From Hyperoplus lanceolatus (lineage: Eukaryota > Chordata > Actinopteri > Uranoscopiformes > Ammodytidae): 64,000 nt of DNA. Shown in pieces: positions 2,194 to 64,000 of this stretch. Numbering within the stretch: the first letter of the stretch is position 1; the number at the start of each line of letters is the position of its first letter. The notes beneath the pieces are model-generated. The model was given only the letters and a program-made list of their open reading frames with translations, was not told where the DNA came from and searched no databases. Made by a program: the position numbers and the translations under genes. The stretch is taken from the NCBI GenBank assembly GCA_026929865.2, contig CM049400.1, positions 18,055,001 through 18,119,000 of the forward strand, read 5' to 3'.

Positions 2194-2980
2194 CTTCAGT
2201 TTGATTTGCTTAATGCCAGTGTATTAACATGAAATGAAAGAGTGCGCTGGCATGCATCACAGAACAAATGCCACGGGGGAATCACTCACAAGATAGGCTA
2301 CACTCACTTGCAGCTGTAAAGTGAGTGGGCCACTTCCTTTAACGCACATCTCAGCTTTTTTTCTCACGTTGTAAACAAGAGCAATGGAGGGTGAATCACT
2401 CGGCAGGTTAGAGCTTGTCTTCACGACTGACACAAAAAGGGTATAACTTTGCAGCACACACATTCCAACTCTAAGCTTAGCTGGAAACTATTATCTACTG
2501 CTTCAAGCCCACACCCTCCAGATTTACACATAAACAACACTGAGGCTTCTGATGCCTGGCAGACAAGTTGAATTCCAATGTGTGAGAGAAACTCCCCGGC
2601 AGGACAGCATCCAGCTACTTAAATCAAGCTGAAGGCGACGCTATGTGTGTCTTCGCTTGATAAAGAGGGGAAAACTAACTCGTGTCTGAAGTGCGTTGGC
2701 AGTGACGGGCAAAACGAGCTGCACTCAAAGACAGCTCTCCCACGGTGAGACTACCCTGTAACCTTGACAAAAAAAAACAGAGGAATACCGCCGTGGCATA
2801 CATTAGCAGTGACAGACAGACAGTGTGGCTGACAGGGAAGAGAAAAACACAGAGAAGTATTGTCCACCACGGCGGGAGAGATTAAAAGCTTTCCCTCTTG
2901 ACTTGCTTGCCTGCCTTCCACCAACTCAAACCTAATACCGTCCCATGGATTAGGCAAGACCCGTCTCTAAATCCCCCAGT

Positions 2981-3011
<31 letters not shown>

Positions 3012-3103
3012 CACAGCCAACAGAGACTATAAGGAGAGACAAAGTCACACAAGAAAGTGGAGAAAGTGAGGAATTCTGGGAAAGTTCTCTTCTTCTGACT
3101 TAC

Positions 3104-3196
3104 CCTCTCTCCACTGTTCCTCCGCAGAGTCCCCACCGGCAGTTTAAGCATCAGCCGGCGGGTTCTCCCGGGCGTCATGGCTCCCTGCACCACCAT
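3104..3196 (-). CDS. Candidate alternative first coding exon (31 codons) of a minus-strand gene
   Basis: Read on the minus strand from the ATG at 3196, the frame is open for exactly 31 codons. It ends at a strong donor (AGG then GTAAGT) in phase 0. A second in-frame ATG lies at 3178. The peptide is basic, with an R-T-R-R patch and a M-L-K-L-P-V-G-T-L-R-R stretch. The sequence upstream on the minus strand is fairly CpG-rich (about 3200-3340), as expected near a promoter. Phase and strand match the frmd4a-like exon at 57270-57314, so I infer an alternative start of the same gene, but I do not recognise the peptide itself. It could instead begin an unrelated gene lying to the left, or be a chance frame. 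No acceptor exon is visible in the window. Confidence 0.4.
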
Positions 3197-3516
3197 AGTG
3201 CTACTGCGCTCCAGAGTGTGTGTGTCCGTGGGTGTGTGAGCATGGGTGCGAGGTGCGTGGGAGGTGGGTGTCCTAGCCGTCCCTTCCAGCCTGGCAGCCG
3301 GGTGCTCCACGCGGGCTTGCGCGTGGGTCGCGTAAATAGATTAGGGAAAGAAAGTGAGTGATGTCAGTGTGTAGCCTACACACACACACACACGCACACA
3401 GCAGCCCCAACCTGCCACTTCCTATGTGCCTCTCCCTGCTTCTGCTTCCCTCTGTGGTAGAAGAACACTTCCCATCTCCTCTCAGCTGCGCTCCACTCTG
3501 CCGCTCACGAGGTGAA

Positions 3517-3651
<135 letters not shown>

Positions 3652-4061
3652 TGAGAGTGTGTGTGAGAGGGAGCGCGCTTTGTCTCTCCTCTCTTTCTTC
3701 TCTTTTCCAGCCCCCTTCCTTCCCTATATCTCCTTGCCTCCCACATACACACTCTTCCTTCAGTTGGGGGGGCTTAACCAGGTCACTGGATTAATGTGAC
3801 GTTACGGCTGTTATTAGCATACGCGCTCGTGTCACGTGCTCCAATAATAATTGTGTGTGAGCATACACAACACCCCCCCACCATCATCCATCCGCACACA
3901 CCCACACACACACAGCTTTTACAGGGGATCACGTGGGGGACCTCAAAAGGAATATGGGATGTTTTGCCATCTGGTAGGGAGATTATCTTTGAAATCCCAC
4001 ATCCAGCTTTCTCTCCCAGCACTGTCTATCTGGACTACGACACAAATGGGGGAGGGGGGGA

Positions 4062-4082
4062 CACGCACACGCACACACGCAC

Positions 4083-4150
<68 letters not shown>

Positions 4151-4155
4151 ACACG
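4062..4155. repeat. (CA)n microsatellite with CG and AA interruptions
   Basis: An imperfect CA array of about 94 bp. Confidence 0.95.
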
Positions 4156-4557
4156 TCAAGCAAGCACAACCTTCATGCATGCAGATATTGACTTCGCTGT
4201 CACTTAATTTATCGTCTGCATGCGGAAAAGTGTGAAAATTGCCTGATTTTTCTTTTGTTCTTTTCCAAACATCTTCATGTGTGACAGCAGTGGAGCTGCA
4301 AGGCCTCATTCCCTGCAGAGATCTGTTATCATGATGGATATCATGCAGATTCCCCCCAAACCATTCTTTCAGCTGAGTCAGTCCTCCTGTATCCACCACA
4401 GTGGTCCTTACATCTCCATTAAAGCTATTGGACTCATGAGTTACAGCTGCACCATAGTGACTTACTGTCATATTTCTCATCATCACTCACCACCAGCTCT
4501 GTTTGCCATCTGCACATCTATACTAAACTGTCAGCTGATTAACTTAAGTGGATCAAC

Positions 4558-4558
<1 letters not shown>

Positions 4559-4609
<51 letters not shown>
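4559..4609. repeat. (CA)n microsatellite
   Basis: A CA array of about 50 bp followed by a short TA run. Confidence 0.95.
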
Positions 4610-4616
<7 letters not shown>

Positions 4617-5561
4617 TTGCAGATGTTCGATCTCTACATATGCACGTAGGTTGTAGCACATGTATGGCCGGCCGGTTCAACTATAGAAGAGCAAGCAGAT
4701 CTCTTGTATGGGATAGATAGGTAGCTGTTGTAAGCCAGTAACACTGGATTATAACCAGAAAGATTTAGCTCGTTCATCACAGTTATGAGTTGACAGTTGA
4801 GAGCAGGTCAGAGGGTATGAAATCAGATTAAAGCCACCATTCTAAATGAGCAACCAAACGCTTTTTTTTTCAACCGACCTAGCAAGTAGGTTTAGTGACA
4901 TGATACTGTATATGCCACGCTCACGTAGTCACACCCACACACACACACACACAAAAAAAAACACACACATTGTGATAAAGCCGAATATACAGGAAAAAAT
5001 CCTCCGCAGTGGTAATCCCCAGTAAGCATTATTTATTCAATGCCCTGGCCCACATCAGTGTGTGAGTGACTGTGGCCTACATGAGAAATATCAGAGGGCT
5101 ATTTATAAACGTTGTGTGCAGACATCCAGGTCTTGCAGATGGACGTGCTTGAGGAATTGAAAAAGGAGAGCGAAGGACTCGCTTCAGTTCTCTGCTTGCT
5201 TGTTTTGTTTGTGGTACTCTTTGCGTGGCGCGCGTGTGAGTGTGTGTTTAATGTAAATTCAGACAGCGATGACTCTGCAGATTCGTGAGACAAAAGCCTT
5301 GCATTGCTTTCACAGGGTTCTTGTACACACAACTCTAACAAGGGAGATGACAATACTCCCTCCTAATTGAACAGTAAATAATGTGTGTTTGTTTTTGTTG
5401 TTTGTTCTCCTCTGCTGCTTTCGTTTTTTTCAAATTCCACTGCCTCAAATCTAGTGAGGTAATAAGTGCTCGCCATGACAGGGGGTTGGAAAAACAAACA
5501 ACATGTTACTATTCTGGATGCTTCAGGCTAGATGAACAATGACCCATTTCAGTCAACAAAC

Positions 5562-5992: not shown

Positions 5993-8898
5993 TTATCTTT
6001 TAAAAACATGTGCAAACAACAACTCATCATCGATAACTGAACAAACAATGTTCCCATAGCACCAGCGGGTCTTAAAAGTGTCTAGATCTCCAATGTTTTT
6101 ATAAAAACTATACTCTAGCCACAGTCTGACTCTGATGTTGATTAGCCAGACTGTGCCTGCGTCCTGCCCTTCTTTGTTTTCAATTTGGTTTTTTCTGCTG
6201 ATGTAAATTGCCATTTTGGCTTCACCAGATAAAAAATTCAAAAGTTGACATTTTTCCTTGTTCTCTTTTTGGTATCTGGCACCCATGATAAAAACTCTGT
6301 CGGAAAAAATTACACCAAATTAATTAAAAACCAATGCTAAAAGAGTGAAGAACTGCGCTAGTCGCTTACACTCAGTAAAAACATGAAAAACAGTCTCAAG
6401 GAGATCACAAAAAGGACACGTGTTAAAAACCGCTGGATTAAGAACAGAAATAAAAGAATTGGAGGCAATGGCACCATGTAAAATTCGCCACTGGAGGTCG
6501 GCAGTCCGTTTTTTAAGGGGAGGTTTATAAAACAATCTCCATTGAGGACCGGGCCCAGTGTGGCCCCCCAGCCTACTGGTCCACACAGTGGGGGGGCGGC
6601 TGCTCAGTCCGGCTCTGTTTATGCTCTTATTGCAGTTGGCGTAAATGGTTTTCTTGTCTGCTTTATTTACGGTCAGCCTGCTCATGTTGCTTGGAGTGAG
6701 CAGGGGCCCGGTCAGCTCTCCTACCACGGGGCTCAGGCGGACATCAGGGAAGGGGTCAGTGGGGTCTGGTGTGGCTCTTTTCAGGCAGTAATCTTTGAGG
6801 AGACTTCTTTCTTTGATGCTCAGCCTCTGCCTCCAGAGCTCCAAGAGTCTCTCCGCCACTCGCTGTGATTGAAGGCCCAGCCGAGTGCCCAGGGCCCTGG
6901 CATCATCCAGCTCTGGCCCCACTTCCTCCACCAGCTGCTGCAGGCAGACGGTCCCTGAGCGGCACAGCGCCCCCGTCAGGCCGGGGGTGGTGTTGTTGGT
7001 GATGTCCAGCCTGGCCCCGTGGATCAGCGGCTCCTTTAGTAACCAGTACAGAGAGTTAGCTTCATGGCACACTTTACGATTAAAAAGGGCCCATGACTTA
7101 AAAACACCCTGATAAAACGGAGGTAACCCACTTAAATTTAAAAATTTAGAATCAGTTAAAAACAGAGCAGTATCCAGCCCCAGGTTACTTACATGTCTGA
7201 GAATGCAGCTGGCCACATTCCTCCACACCAGGTCTGTCGAACCAGACAGGAACTTCTGTACAAACTGAATTCTAAAAGTGGCTGTTCTACTGGCCAAGTG
7301 GATGAGGCCCTGTCCCCCCTCCTCTCTGGATAAAAACAGCACTCCCTGTGGCACCCAGTGCAACCCGTCCCAGAAAAAATCCACTATTTTTTTTTTTAAT
7401 TTGGGCTAGTAAGCCTGAGGGAGGGTCAACACATGAGAGGCGGTGCCACAGTTGGGAAGCTACTAGATTATTTAAAACCAGGACTCTACCTCTGTAGGAC
7501 ATCTGTGGCAGTAGCCATTTCCACTTAATTAGTTTACTTTCTACTTTTTCAGTGACGTTCTCCCAGTTCTTCTGGACTAAAACATCCTTACCAAGGAATA
7601 CACCAAGGTACTTAATTCCGTCTGTCTTCCAGGTTAAATTTTGGGAAAGAACTGGGAGACCGTCACGCCATTCACCGACAGCGAGGGCTTCACTCTTTTT
7701 CCAGTTAACCCTCGCTGCCGATGTAGCTGCAAAATCATCAATAATGTTAATTAAAATGTCCACATCTGCTTGGTTTTTAGTAAAAACAATTACATCATCA
7801 GCGTAAGCAGATAAAACAATATTTTCATTAAAACCAGGTAAAACCAGACCTTGTAGGTTGGAGCGTATTTTGTTGAGGAGGGGTTCCAGGGAGAGCGTGT
7901 AGAGCATTCCGGACAAAGCACAGCCCTGCCGCACGCCTCTACACACTCTAAAAGGAGCACACAGACCACCGTTAAATTTCAGCACACTCTCAACATTACT
8001 GTACAACACTTTGATCTTGGCTATGAAGCCAGCGCTGAACCCAAACTTCTCCATAACTCTCCAGAGGAAGTTGTGTTCGACGCGGTCAAATGCCTTTTCC
8101 TGGTCTAGGGAAATCAAACCAGTGTTAATGCCAATAGACTTAGAGACCTCCAAGACATCCCGAATTAGGTAGACGTTGTCTACCATGGACCTGCCGGGCA
8201 CACAGTACGTTTGGTCCCGATGGACGGACTGCTCCATCGCCTCCCTCAGCCTGTTGGCGAAGGCTTTGGACAGAAGCTTGTAATCCACACAAAGCAATGA
8301 CACAGGCCGCCAGTTCTTGATATCCTGCAAATTACCTTTTTTGGGTAAGAGTGTTATAACTGCCCTCCGGCAGGACATCGGCATGGAGCCGCAGGCCAGG
8401 CTTTCATTAAAAACATCTAACAGGTCTGCAGCTAAAATATCCCAGTATGCTTTATAAAACTCAACTGTCAGACCGTCGATGCCCGGAGCCTTCCGCCCCT
8501 GCATGCCCTTGTAGCTCCTCCCTGCTCAGAGGCCTCTCCAGCTGTGAGTTGGTCTCCGTAGAGACCTGAGGTAGCCCCCTTAGGAACCCCTCCAGCGTGT
8601 CCTTCTCCTCGTACTCCGAGGAGTAGAGGGAGGAATAAAACTCTACAGCTCTGGCCCTGATTTGCCCTGACTCTGTCAGCTCCTGGCCTGTGTCTGAAAG
8701 CAATGTGTGGATTACCCGCCTCTGCCCATTCCTCCGCTCCAGGCCGAAGAAGAAGCTAGATGGAGCATCCATCTCAGTGATGTTCTGTACTCGGGACCTG
8801 ACTAGAGCGCCTTGTACTTTAGTGTCCAGCAGGTCAGCTAATAAAAGCTTTTTTTCTTTGAGGATTTCAATATATCCCCGTTCTCCATGATGATTCAC
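5993..8898 (-). pseudogene. LINE ORF2, reverse transcriptase and C-terminal part, frameshifted
   Basis: Three pieces, read right to left. At 8461-8898 is the linker after the endonuclease. At 7287-8504 is the reverse transcriptase proper, with the G-R-K-A-P-G-I-D-G-L entry motif, L-D-Q-E-K-A-F-D-R-V, G-V-R-Q-G-C and the catalytic Y-A-D-D-V-I-V-F box. At 6320-7384 is the C-terminal region, with a L-Q-W-R-I-L-H-G motif and a C-P-F-C ... H ... C zinc-binding cluster. A stop near 6317-6319 interrupts the frame, which then continues in phase to 5993. Frameshifts lie near 8890, near 8470-8505, and at the homopolymer around 7385-7395. The motifs are intact enough to name the enzyme (RNA-directed DNA polymerase used for target-primed reverse transcription), but no continuous product can be made. 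Confidence 0.9.
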
Positions 8899-9751
8899 TC
8901 ATCTTTTCCAGTTCTACTATAACAGTCTCTAAATCCTTCATAGATCTAGTAATGTCCTGTGAGACGTTGAGGGTGTGCTGCTGACATAGAAGTTGGATTT
9001 GAGTCTTACCATGGTCCCACCACTGCCTAAGACTACTAAAATCCCCCTTTCGCTGCCTAAAAACACCCCAAAAATAACCTAAAACATCCTTAAACTTTCT
9101 GTCTAATGCTAAACTAGAGTTAAAATGCCAATGTGCGCTTTTTGGCTTAAAATCTCTAATTAAAACATGACATACAAGCAAGGAATGATCACTAAAACCA
9201 GATGGCATAATACTACACATTTTAAAAATATTAAAATGATGCTTAAAACCATAAAACCTATCTAGCCTAGCTGAGGAGATCCTACTCTCTCTAAGGTGGG
9301 ACCAGGTGTACTGACGGCAGTCTGCATGCATCCTTCTCCACACGTCCACTAGGCCATGAGAATGGACCAGCTGCCTCAGCGCATGTTGAGAGGCTGGATG
9401 TGGCTCTGCATGATTGCGATCTAACGCCTCATTTTCTGTACAATTAAAATCCCCACCCAAGAATAAAAAATCCTCTGAGTTACAGCTATTTAATTTGTCT
9501 GTTATTTTTTCTAAAAACAGCTTCCTCTCTGTACCATTGGTTGGAGCATAAACATTTATAAAAACGATATTAAAATGTTCAAACTGCGCTTTAATTAAAA
9601 GCAACCTCCCCATTATGACATGCTCGACCTCCATGGAGACTGGAGAGAAACCCCTAGAAAAGAGTAAGCCCACCCCTCCACTTAGGTTAGTGTGCGGTGC
9701 GCGGTGCGGCGATCGGCCGCTCGGAGACAGCACTCGGCCCCGCAGCTGCAT
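8867..9751 (-). pseudogene. LINE ORF2, AP-like endonuclease domain, N-terminally truncated
   Basis: The frame encodes the middle and C-terminal part of an exonuclease-endonuclease-phosphatase fold. Visible are F-I-N-V-Y-A-P-T, the G-G-D-F-N metal-site motif, Y-T-W-S-H-L-R-E and the S-D-H catalytic triplet near the end. The N-terminal third, which carries the first catalytic Asn and Glu in this family, is absent. The frame runs directly into GC-rich sequence that is shared, in another frame, with the end of ORF1. The domain would nick target DNA in a live element, but here it cannot be functional. Its downstream end shifts frame near 8890 into the reverse transcriptase part. Confidence 0.85.
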
Positions 9752-10503
9752 CCCCCACAGCCGCGGAGCGGAGCTCCGCAGGGGCTTCCCCTCGCCCCGC
9801 CGCCCCGCCCCGCTGCCCTCCCGGGGCCAGGCGGAGCCGGCTCCCCGCGCCCCGGACAGGCCTTCACTGTATGGCCCTCAATGCCACAACCAAAGCACTT
9901 CATTACTGACGAGGAAGCAAATATCACGTAATCATAATCATCTACCTTAACGTGAAAGCGGAGGTTGAGCTCCGCGTCTCGGTTGTTAAGTATCATATAG
10001 ATGTGTCTGCGATGAGACACTACGTGCTTCAGTAAGGGAGACTTACAACCAGACAGGATCTTCTTCATCGGTGATACTACTTTTCCATGTCTGGAAAGCT
10101 CTTTACTGAGAAACTCGTCAGAAACTAACGGAGGGACATTAGATAGAGTAACTTTGGTTGCCGGCTGTTCCAGGGGCAGCACCTGCACGAACATGCCATT
10201 CACAGTGAGACCTGCCTCGATCACGCGGTTTACCTTCTCCACCTGGTCCAGGAAGAGCACAACGGCGCTGTTCATCCGAGCGGCCGACTTCAGGCTGCCG
10301 TGCCCGACCAGCGCACCCACCGCCATACCTATATCCTCCACGCTACACGGGAAGCTGGCACCAACTTTGATGCCATGCTTCCGCGTGAGCTGAGAGAACA
10401 CGCCATTTACCATGGCGTCTCTCAAGACGCCGACCAGCGAGTACGCCGGCAGGCACAAACACCACACACAAAACCCCCTTAACTCCCAAAAAACAAATGT
10501 CAA
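9682..10503 (-). pseudogene. LINE ORF1 (gag-like nucleic-acid-binding protein), C-terminally altered
   Basis: The frame is 273 codons. An internal ATG, the M-V-N-G-V-F-S-Q-L start, may be the true one, because the first roughly 30 residues look like untranslated sequence. The body has the L-E-Q-P-A-T-K-V-T-L-S-N-V-P-P segment typical of Tx1-group ORF1. One CCHC knuckle follows, C-F-G-C-G-I-E-G-H-T-V-K-A-C, encoded near 9870-9910. After the knuckle the reading changes abruptly to a low-complexity Gly/Pro/Arg stretch from very GC-rich DNA (about 9690-9870), and the frame stops. In a live element ORF1 coats the RNA. Here the C-terminus appears lost in the same deletion that removed the start of the endonuclease. 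Confidence 0.8.
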
Positions 10504-57090: not shown

Positions 57091-57216
<126 letters not shown>

Positions 57217-57759: not shown

Positions 57760-59815
<2,056 letters not shown>

Positions 59816-59831: not shown

Positions 59832-60016
59832 TCTCGGCATTCTTACCAACTTTTTTACCAACGTTTACATCTGTTAGTGGACAAAACGTGAGAGGATATA
59901 TGGTGAGTAAGACAGCTTTTTTCATCTGAACAAGTTGTATCAAGGACAAAACAAATGGGGAAATATTAATGGGAAAAACGTGGGTCAGTATCTTTATATC
60001 TATCATCTGAGTCTAC

Positions 60017-60025
60017 TATAAAAAG
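60017..60025 (+). promoter_or_regulatory. TATA-like box of the kinase-CARD gene
   Basis: TATAAAAAG lies about 400 bp upstream of the chosen ATG at 60420. A start of transcription near 60045-60050 would fit. A possible 5' UTR acceptor (TTTTTCTGCAG) lies at about 60370. Confidence 0.35.
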
Positions 60026-60419
60026 CTCTTGCCCTAAAGGTTTGCTCTCACAGTTTGATACAGTTTAATGCAATACAAATGACACAAACCACTAATTTTG
60101 GTCTTCCAGTGGTTTTGAATCCGTCAGGGTTTGAAAGGCAAATACTGTACATGTTTAGCTTCCAGAGGAGGAAGTAGAGGGCTGCCAGCAAAGATTGGTA
60201 TTTCCTTGTTTAATTCCTCATAGTGGAAGTCTTTTGTTTTTCAAGCCACTAGAGCTATTTGAATCAAATTGGATTGAGTTGTAAGCAGTAGATACAATGT
60301 AATGTTTGAGAAAAGATATCCAACCACTTATTAAACCACTTTCTTTACATTTTAAGCTGTTTTTCTGCAGTAATTGTTTTATTTAAAGTCACAGTTCTTC
60401 TACCTGAGTTGGGCAAGAG

Positions 60420-61276
60420 ATGGCACTGCTGGACCACGGTGATAAGAACTTCGGAGAATGGAAGTTGATTGGCTCTGGGGGATTCGGCAAAGTCTACAAG
60501 GCCAGACACAAGGACCTGAGGAAGATGAGGGCCATTAAGATACTTAATAATGTTAGGTAAATGAACACATATCTGCAATGTTTTGTCATTTCACTTGGGG
60601 GAATTGGTTTAAGTAATTCATGCATGCACAACCATACATGCTAAATAGAACTTTAAGCAGCCCTGTCTCTCTTTCTTTTTCTCTTCTCTTTTCCACAATC
60701 CCCTAAAATCATTCCAGCCTTCAGAGTGCACTGAATGAGGCTGAAACAATGGCCATAGCTCCCTGTGAGTTTGTGTTGACACTTTATGGAATGTATCAGG
60801 GATGTCCACCAGGTGAAGCAATGTCCAGACTTGGAATAGTGATGGAGTTCATGGATGGAGGGTCAGTTGAGTCCCTGCTGAAGAAACTGTCTGGCCCTCC
60901 ACCGTGGCTCCTTGCATTCCGCTTGGCCTACGAAGTGGCTCTAGGCATGAACTACCTCCATAGTCGGGGGCTCGTGCACTGTGACCTTAAGCCAAGTAAT
61001 GTACTGCTGACTGACACACTTAATGCCAAGGTACAGTGCCATCAACTGTGGCTCTTATGTTTACATTAAAGCTGAAACAGTTGTTTGTATAACATCCTGC
61101 TTCCCTTCTGACTCTATAGATAGCAGACTTTGGTCTGTCCAAGGTTTCACACAGTGTTTTGACCGGGAGCAGAGAAACACCAGGAGAAGAGGGAGGCTCA
61201 TTCAAGTACATGCCTCCTGAGGCTTTTAAGCTAAACTATAAACCTGTCCGTTCTTTTGACATTTATAGGTAATTAA

Positions 61277-61358
<82 letters not shown>

Positions 61359-63107
61359 TTATTATTATTAGCAGTAATAGTATTATGATGCTGTATATGG
61401 CCAACATGTATTAACCATGTATGACTTAAAAATGCCATTATTTCTCTCTCATTCAGCTATGGCATCGTGCTGTGGTCCATTTTTACTGGTGAAGAGCCCT
61501 ATCCAGGTTTGAATGGTTTCACTCACATTTCATCACATTTTGCACATAAACCAAACATTGTGGTATATATGTAGTTCATATGTACACACACTCAGTCGGG
61601 TTTCTATGTTTTGAGGCGAGTCTTCATCATATTAAATGTTTTGTAGCGGCCAATGCGGTACTTGTGAAACTGAAGATAACTGAAGGGGACAGACCTGACT
61701 GTCAGATATTTGAACAGAAGAAGGCAGTGGGGCTGAAAGAGCTGGTTGGTCTCATGAAGAAATGCTGGGATGGGAATGCCTCCAACAGGCCTGACTTTAA
61801 AGGTCGGTATATTTGTAAGTACTCTACTTACTCAATGTCATCATATCAGACCATTTTCTACTCTGAATTGTACACATCAGTCAAATGAACTTAGAAACCT
61901 CTTGTGGACTAGCTTGACACTTACTGCATTATTTGTAAAGCCATTGTTCATTCATGCACAATGTCATTTAAAATGAACATTGTCTTCTGTTTCAGAGTGC
62001 ACTAAAGTCACAGAGATTGTGACTTTAGACACAAAGCATGAGAAGGGAATTAATGACGCCGTCTTTCAAGTCTCGAAAACACTGGTACAGCTGAAACATT
62101 TTCTCATATTTGCGATAATCATGATTCCCTCTATGATAGGTGATGTTTACTCTCCATTTTACTATAGGGTTTACCAACCACTATACAAGGTCCAAACGTC
62201 ACATCACAAATCCAGACACCAGGTAGATTATGCAATCCCTGTGCGCTGTGAGTTTAATCCCTCAAATGATTCCTTACTTTCTCATATAAAACATGGCGTT
62301 CTTATTTCTTTCTCAGACCAGTCACAGCCACACGTTACAGTGGATTTTGGCAGACAGACACAAACTGAAAGGACTCCTGTACAGGTATGCCAAGTGCACT
62401 TTGACCTTTGCATCACTGGAAGCTCAGAACAAATACATGTATTGAATGAGGTTGTGTAATTTAGATGAAGAGAGACATACAACAAATCATACAACCTACA
62501 GTTGTTTGAGATAATTACACAATATAGAACACGCTTATTATTTTTGTCATCAGGATCCTGTCGCCATCCCTATTAAAACAATGAGCGAGAAAGAAAAAGG
62601 TGAGTGGCTTTTCTCTACTGATGCTCTATGTCACTATGATGAATTCAAAGTTATTTATTTTTCGATTTCCTGTGTGTTAACAAAAAAAACTCAAATAGTC
62701 ATGATATTTTTATTAACAACAAGTCTCATTAATAATCAAATTATGCTTTTTATGTGTACACAACAGCCAAGTTTGTCGATGTCAACAGAGCAACATTAAT
62801 TCAGGACGTGTCCGAGGTCATGTCGATAGTAGAGGAGCTGGGAAACATGGTCCATGGTGAAACCTACTCAAAGATTCATGCTAAAAAAACAAGCCAGGAG
62901 AAAATGAGACTGCTCTATAACGGGACATTTCGGTCAGGAGGGCAAAAGGTCAAAGCTGCCTTCTTCGACGCCCTCAACAAACTTGAGCCCCTACTAGTGG
63001 AAAGGCTCGGTAGGATTTCAATGTTAAAATGATCAAACATAGTAGTTTAATCTACAACAAGATAACGTTTTTAATTTGACTTTCCTCTTTCTCCCTCAGG
63101 TGGCTGA
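60420..63107 (+). CDS. RIP-family protein kinase with C-terminal CARD, ten exons
   Basis: Exons read from splice sites: 60420-60556, 60718-61030, 61120-61268, 61457-61506, 61647-61802, 61996-62139 (or 62084), 62317 (or 62322)-62384, 62554-62599, 62767-63009, 63100-63107. All phases agree, giving 437 aa (417 with the alternative exon 6/7 choice). The kinase domain covers about residues 12-267: glycine loop G-S-G-G-F-G-K-V (18-25), catalytic Lys40, helix-C Glu53 or 55, catalytic loop H-C-D-L-K-P-S-N (133-140), D-F-G (153-155) and P-P-E (182-184). HCD in place of HRD makes it a non-RD kinase. A linker of under 90 residues follows. Residues about 355-437 are a CARD closest in pattern to ASC (F-V-D, R-A-T-L-I, Y-S-K-I, K-M-R-L-L-Y). 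The kinase body resembles RIPK3, whereas kinase plus CARD is the RIPK2 layout. RIPK2 is longer (about 540 aa). The likely role is innate immune or inflammasome-linked signalling in the cytosol, which is inference. The start was chosen for its position just before the glycine loop. Confidence 0.85.
61277..61370. repeat. (ATT)n microsatellite in intron 3 of the kinase gene
   Basis: About 94 bp of ATT units inside the 188-bp intron 61269-61456, so the array makes up half of it. Confidence 0.97.
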
Positions 63108-63158
63108 TTCAAATTCAAATGTGGCCTTTCTGCAGTTTGTGGATAGTGATGTGAAAAA

Positions 63159-63370
63159 CTTGATTTGATTTGATTTGATTTATTTAGAACATGTTAAAGG
63201 AACAACAATATCAAGGATACATTCAAGAGCCATTGGGTAAAAAGTAAATATAAATAAAGGACTTGCAAGGAAACCCAGAAAACCCTCACTCAAGAGGGTT
63301 GGTATGGTGGGTTCCCTACAACTGTTCAACGATATGGAGAGATTAAAAAAAACATCAAACATGTATTAGT
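63159..63370 (-). mobile_element. Possible retroposon 3' tail in the 3' region of the kinase gene
   Basis: On the minus strand the segment ends in AACATGTTCTAAATAAA followed by four TCAAA-type units (63159-63182). This resembles fish LINE or SINE 3' ends that terminate in short tandem repeats. No coding remnant or target-site duplication was identified, so the left-to-right extent is approximate. Confidence 0.3.
63253..63258 (+). terminator. Poly(A) signal AATAAA, candidate for the kinase-CARD gene
   Basis: AATAAA lies 146 bp after the stop codon. A second AATAAA at 63788-63793 is an alternative. Confidence 0.4.
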
Positions 63371-64000
63371 TTGTATCAGGGGCTGGGGATATGGCTTTAA
63401 AATTTACATCATGGAATTTGTTTTACAGTTTTCGACCGTGATTTTATTATAGCATGGTATTCGTTTGTCTGTTGAAGTTTTACAAGGAGTAACCTGTTCT
63501 GTGCCTTCATTCAAATCAAATTTATATTTGATTAGATATTAGGAACCCTAACATTTGCGAAGTTTAGCCTGTAATATCTTTGCATCTATAACTCTAGTCA
63601 TAAGATGTATAGCAGCAGTAAATGATGCATAGAGTGACACTTGTTCTTCAGGATGTACTCTGCTGGCCCTGCTGGTCCAACTTGTTTTGGCCTATAGTTT
63701 GCTACATCTCAATCATGGCTTACTTTACTTGGCAACTTTATGCCGGGTTTGCCCTCAGGATGATTGATAAAATTACCTTACAATGATAATAAAGAGTAAG
63801 ATTTTTCATGTGTGCCCCTTTTTTCATTCTTCAGATTTTGACATTCACCTGGTGCAATGAATATCAAAAAATGGAGGCCTCAGCTCATAACATTTCTCAC
63901 ACCATTTATACAAATAAAAATGTGATAACAGTTTTTCCGAAGCTAGGCACCAGTTTACTTTAAGTTTGTCTAAGCTTGACACTTGACAAGTAGGAGGTAA
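63371..64000. other. Downstream region, nothing recognised
   Basis: AT-rich sequence with a second AATAAA at 63788-63793. No exon was recognised. It may be 3' UTR or intergenic. Confidence 0.5.

Follow-up and report, generated by a model that had tools for sequence, protein, structure and literature searches.

The window, a stretch of 64,000 nucleotides of Hyperoplus lanceolatus DNA (C6:18055001-18119000), carries on its plus strand, at 60420-63107, eleven exons that join into a single open frame of 437 amino acids ending in a TGA stop. All of the introns are of the GT-AG type. The product consists of a complete RIP-type kinase followed by about 80 linker residues and a C-terminal CARD, which runs from about residue 356. 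The open frame of this eleven-exon model bears out the original prediction that a complete kinase core and a downstream CARD lie here, all in phase. The features are as follows.

60420..60556, plus strand: coding exon 1, with the start codon, the glycine-rich loop GSGGFG (aa 18-23) and the kinase lysine K40; donor gtaaat
60718..61030, plus strand: coding exon 2, with the helix C region, the hinge and the catalytic loop HCDLKPSN
61120..61268, plus strand: coding exon 3, with DFG (aa 153-155), the activation segment and PPE
61457..61506, plus strand: coding exon 4, kinase C-lobe
61647..61802, plus strand: coding exon 5, end of the kinase domain, CW...NRPDFK
61996..62084, plus strand: coding exon 6, segment following the kinase, with homology to the corresponding RIPK3 exon
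62168..62222, plus strand: coding exon 7, linker, predicted from splice signals and frame
62317..62384, plus strand: coding exon 8, linker, predicted from splice signals and frame
62554..62599, plus strand: coding exon 9, linker, predicted from splice signals and frame, its donor toward the CARD exon in phase 1
62767..63009, plus strand: coding exon 10, CARD, its acceptor in phase 1 and placed one codon ahead of FVD
63100..63107, plus strand: coding exon 11, final residues and the stop TGA
63253..63258, plus strand: AATAAA, probably the polyadenylation signal, located about 146 nt 3' of the stop

Elsewhere in the window, the minus strand at 6320-10503 holds a LINE-type retroelement in several frames, with a reverse transcriptase match (PF00078, 4.5e-41) and with endonuclease-like and zf-RVT-like stretches that score below their cut-offs. 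Long simple repeats are formed by GAAA (57091-57214), TG (58588-58777) and ATT (61278-61358), the last of which sits in intron 3 of the kinase-CARD gene. Just downstream of the window on C6, plus-strand exons of an IMP dehydrogenase gene (L081, about 2919-4620; PF00478, 7.9e-19 for the joined pieces) provide a synteny anchor for finding orthologues.

The kinase is recognized by Pfam (PF07714, E 2.5e-45, aa 15-272) and retains K40, D135, N140 and DFG. Its catalytic HRD motif reads HCD (60977-60985). The equivalent motif is HHD in fish RIPK2 and HLD in fish RIPK3, so the arginine at this position is variable in the RIP kinase family. The window kinase is apparently competent. Among the best 60 of 2727 matches to solved structures, its nearest relatives are the RIP kinases RIPK4 (2.1e-46), RIPK3 (1.6e-44), RIPK2 (3.4e-36) and RIPK1 (5.2e-34), and other kinases follow from 2.3e-24, bar one chain labelled EGFR (9p9u). 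This places the window kinase in the RIP family. The exceptional chain, 9p9u_A, is 678 aa long, and its matches to RIP kinases (2.3e-36 and 3.2e-44) are far above those of other EGFR-type kinases; it is perhaps a fusion or a mislabelled entry.

Judged by the best structural match alone, RIPK4 comes out slightly ahead of RIPK3. In a tree of 11 rows, the window kinase is sister to fish RIPK3 with support of 93/95, and the two are identical at 124 of 257 residues (48%). The same pair is recovered (88/90) in a tree of nine rows that left out the long outgroup and a partial row from C4. Approximately unbiased (AU) tests reject placing the window kinase with RIPK2 (p 0.001, at a cost of 23.7 log units) or with RIPK4 (p 0.002, 28.1 log units). 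Support is lacking for a link between human RIPK3 and the fish pair; a clade of the window kinase with both RIPK3 rows is not recovered, and is allowed by the AU test (p 0.355, 1.8 log units).

The kinship extends beyond the kinase domain. Specifically, exon 6 shares 15 identical residues with the post-kinase exon of RIPK3, an alignment that none of 10000 shuffles equalled, and both exons are entered in phase 1 and left in phase 0. Against the RIPK2 counterpart, 229 of 10000 shuffles did as well, and the alignment score is 4 rather than the 52 obtained with RIPK3. Together, the tree, the AU tests and the homology of exon 6 uphold the original description of the kinase as RIPK3-like. One structural difference lies within the kinase region, where exon 2 of the window gene corresponds to two exons in both the fish RIPK3 and RIPK2 genes. 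This arrangement, with one intron fewer, suggests intron loss in the window gene.

Searches of the 807 Mb genome place the other members of the family elsewhere. A RIPK3-like gene lies on the minus strand of C23 at about 5.379-5.388 Mb (top structural match RIPK3, 9e-55), and a RHIM sequence, GVQVGNNNN, is found downstream on the same strand, to which it is linked by prediction; this RHIM, with the tetrad VQVG, scores 16.7 bits with the Pfam RHIM model, below the cut-off of 20. In this C23 gene, a reverse-transcriptase-like open frame, recognized by eye, separates the kinase exons from the post-kinase exon (L054 reverse complement, about 4539-5501). RIPK2, with a RIPK2-like CARD, is on the minus strand of C12 at about 24.088-24.098 Mb (1.8e-117 to RIPK2), a RIPK1-like kinase is also on C12 (4e-73 to RIPK1), and RIPK4-like genes are present on C13 and C4. 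Since RIPK1-, RIPK2- and RIPK3-like genes are found at these other places, the window gene is an additional gene. No second copy of it was detected: among 74 genome matches, all pieces above 64% identity are at this locus, and the next-best match (63% over 51 residues) is in RIPK3 on C23. A RIPK2 kinase query, for which 143 of 216 candidates were scored, gave 14 matches, five of them RIPK2 itself on C12; apart from the window gene, no further RIPK2-like kinase carrying a CARD was seen among the rest. A plain RIPK2 orthologue can be dismissed as the identity of the window gene, given a kinase that falls outside the RIPK2 clade and a separate RIPK2 on C12.

The C-terminal domain is less readily recognized by Pfam. 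With the PF00619 model it reaches 14.6 bits when the full-length protein is searched and 18.7 bits when the domain is taken alone; both values lie below the cut-off of 23.9, and the exon is not among the 43 matches of a Pfam CARD scan of the genome. In a phmmer search of solved structures, the top match is a GBP-like CARD (4irl, 2.6e-11), followed by NLRP1 (9.6e-5) and ASC (2.2e-4), and every one of the 19 matches with an E value of 10 or less is named GBP, NLRP1 or ASC. Because of the match to 4irl, a zebrafish protein with 49% identity, exon 10 is taken to be a CARD that Pfam undercounts. A fold computed for the CARD alone is helical with a mean pLDDT of 57.5, too poor to compare, and was not used.

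Used as a probe on the genome, the window CARD gave 15 matches, namely itself and 14 others. The best of the others (C7:35513556, 45% identity, 2e-11) adjoins a pyrin-domain exon (PF02758, 4.5e-15) and is predicted to belong to a PYD-CARD gene, the layout of ASC. On C7 and C9, further CARDs of this kind have FIIND matches close by, an arrangement known from NLRP1-like genes. In the reverse direction, 4irl as a genome query finds the window exon as the best of 16 matches, by a small margin (1.6e-10, versus 4.0e-10 for ASC and FIIND types). The exon boundary is also similar to that of ASC: the CARD exon acceptor is in phase 1 in both, one codon before FVD in the window gene and two codons before in the ASC gene of the same genome, whereas the RIPK2 CARD exon seems to begin further upstream.

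At C7:35.51-35.54 Mb, four pyrin-domain exons are each followed by a CARD match on the minus strand, the CARDs are not all of one kind, and a FIIND match lies among them; these may be tandem ASC-like genes. Several CARD exons of one kind lie near FIIND matches at 33.2-34.4 Mb on C7 and 34-36.3 Mb on C9, which are likely clusters of NLRP1-like receptors.

Trees of 82 columns were built with 20 or 10 of the 43 genome CARDs. The window CARD is sister to the GBP-like CARD in both (94/96 with 20 CARDs, 96/97 with 10). The larger tree is weak, with 17 of 22 inner forks open and a bootstrap that had not settled. In the smaller tree, which is itself weak, the fish RIPK2 CARD is placed next to ASC with a very long branch, the ASC, NLRP1 and GBP-type rows do not come together (p 0.127 when they are constrained to one clade), and a union of the window CARD with that long-branched RIPK2 CARD is not rejected (p 0.079). 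A placement of both domains firmly with RIPK2, which the original prediction named as a way for it to fail, is rejected for the kinase; for the CARD it is not favoured, although the test stops short of rejecting it. By sequence, the window CARD is nearest to the ASC/NLRP1/GBP (inflammasome) kind, to which we assign it. The matches to solved structures, to the genome and from 4irl, together with the tree, sustain the earlier view of this CARD as to its kind, whereas its nearest named relative is the GBP-like CARD, ahead of the NLRP1 and ASC types that had been proposed. A copy taken from a resident GBP gene was considered as its source and set aside: no donor was seen, and the 17 GBP-family matches (on C14, C8, C5 and C15) have no listed CARD match within 1 Mb. 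These matches may be atlastins.

We infer that the kinase part and the CARD part are spliced into one mRNA. Because exon 6 aligns with the post-kinase exon of RIPK3, the kinase part very likely reaches to within 682 nt of the CARD exon. No AATAAA lies between the kinase and CARD exons, and one is present at 63253, 3' of the stop. The first methionine in the CARD frame is the 17th CARD residue, 16 residues into the domain, and the phase 1 donor of exon 9 fits the phase 1 acceptor of the CARD exon. Exons 6 through 9 total 258 nt, such that the CARD stays in frame even when all four are skipped. On a rough weight scale, the acceptors of exons 7 through 9 fall in the 95th-99th percentile of local AG sites and their donors in the 98th-100th percentile of local GT sites. 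The alignment of exon 6, the absence of an AATAAA ahead of the CARD, the position of the methionine and the fit of the phases weigh against two adjacent genes or a partly dead locus, in which a RIPK3-like kinase, cut short, and an isolated CARD exon would not be joined in an mRNA. That reading would be helped by the acceptor of the CARD exon, which reaches only the 71st percentile of local AG sites on the same rough scale, by the lack of homologues for exons 7 through 9 (linker exons 6-9 have no Pfam family match at E up to 1), and by the variant signal ATTAAA at 61065, 61631 and 62572. With a frame that is open across all 11 exons, however, we consider it very improbable.

RIP kinases are distinguished by their tails: RIPK1 and RIPK3 carry a RHIM, and RIPK2 carries a CARD of its own type for NOD signalling. 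The spliced 437-aa protein contains no xQxG tetrad, as the original prediction had noted in seeing no RHIM core, and a look through all three plus-strand frames from 60000 to 64000 gave a single tetrad-like match, the TQSG at 61590, which falls within intron 4. A relic of the RHIM in the linker was also considered and is not supported, with 1830 of 5000 shuffles aligning as well. The window gene has in common with RIPK3 on C23 its kinase sequence, exon boundaries and post-kinase exon, whereas RIPK3 ends in a RHIM and the window gene in a CARD. With RIPK2 on C12 it has in common the layout of a kinase and a C-terminal CARD, but differs in CARD sequence and in the start of the CARD exon. The GBP, ASC and NLRP1 CARDs that it most resembles sit, by name or by adjoining exons, on GTPase-type, PYD or FIIND proteins, whereas this one sits on a kinase.

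The reading we favour, and consider fairly likely, is that RIPK3 was duplicated and that in the copy the RHIM-bearing tail gave way to a CARD of the ASC/NLRP1/GBP kind at the C-terminus, which would dock the kinase on ASC or FIIND-CARD proteins. Through CARD-CARD contacts with ASC or with NLRP1-like proteins that carry FIIND and CARD, the kinase would be clustered on specks or filaments and activated by proximity. It might then phosphorylate a local substrate, either one leading to necroptosis or NF-kappaB, as for RIPK3, with MLKL as a candidate, or a component of the inflammasome. It has been reported that zebrafish Gbp4 enters the Asc speck via its CARD (PMC4932187) and that flounder RIPK1 and RIPK3 depend on the RHIM both for binding MLKL and for driving necroptosis (PMC10825024). 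A more elaborate version is possible, and we advance it tentatively: exon shuffling swapped the amyloid-forming RHIM tail for the inflammasome CARD, ASC/NLRP1-like filaments switch the kinase on toward RIPK3-type targets, the protein thereby wires the inflammasome to necroptosis or NF-kappaB, and the vertebrate set called RIPK2B is in part this gene, misfiled.

Proteins with the same two domains have been described under the name of RIPK2. RIPK2B is reported as a second RIPK2 that keeps kinase and CARD in many vertebrates (PMC12119088), and a zebrafish protein of 513 aa, XP_005166455.1, is listed under RIPK2 with a kinase at 21-264, a CARD at 424-503 and 27.2% identity to human RIPK2 (PMC9573974, table 2). 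These are likened to the window gene by their descriptions, and they may be the same gene, such that the name RIPK2B may cover it. In the table of the latter source, about 145 residues separate kinase and CARD in human RIPK2, versus about 80 in the window protein (PMC9573974). The original prediction had proposed a fish-specific kinase; the genome search here covered a single fish, and RIPK2B is reported from many vertebrates. The accessible text of a paper on expanded inflammasome genes in goby (PMC6988351) yielded no RIPK. In the titles and abstracts searched, a set with subscription journals and preprints mostly outside it, we found no description of a RIPK3-type kinase with an inflammasome CARD. 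Our contribution is sequence evidence that traces the kinase and exon 6, the first of the linker, to RIPK3 and assigns the CARD to the inflammasome kind.

Two other accounts accept the gene as a unit. If the window gene were simply the fish RIPK2B, it would be a second RIPK2 paralogue engaged in NOD-type NF-kappaB signalling. The published listings just cited fit this account, as does the result that the scored RIPK2 query matches include no other second RIPK2-like gene with a CARD. We nevertheless think it unlikely, since the AU test keeps the kinase out of the RIPK2 clade, exon 6 aligns far better with RIPK3, and the CARD is not nearest to that of RIPK2. A different role is conceivable for a gene of RIPK3 origin, with which it is compatible: the CARD might cap ASC/caspase filaments or compete for them as a brake, and kinase activity would be secondary. 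Proteins consisting only of a CARD are known to act as brakes, and HCD in place of HRD could point the same way. Grouper RIP2 has been proposed to compete with ASC for caspase-1 (PMC10200930). The window kinase, however, does not look plainly dead, as it retains its catalytic lysine and aspartate as well as DFG, and RIPK2 and fish RIPK3 likewise lack the HRD arginine; we consider such a braking role possible but unlikely. The probabilities we attach to these two accounts overlap with that of the RIPK3 duplicate, because either could hold for the same gene.

If the window gene is indeed a RIPK3 duplicate with an inflammasome CARD, it represents a natural experiment in which the recruitment module was swapped while the enzyme was kept. 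One could then test whether clustering is enough for a RIPK3-type kinase or whether the RHIM itself is needed. The gene would also provide a direct signalling link between the ASC speck and a kinase in fish, and the pairing of these two domains could connect two inflammatory cell-death pathways.
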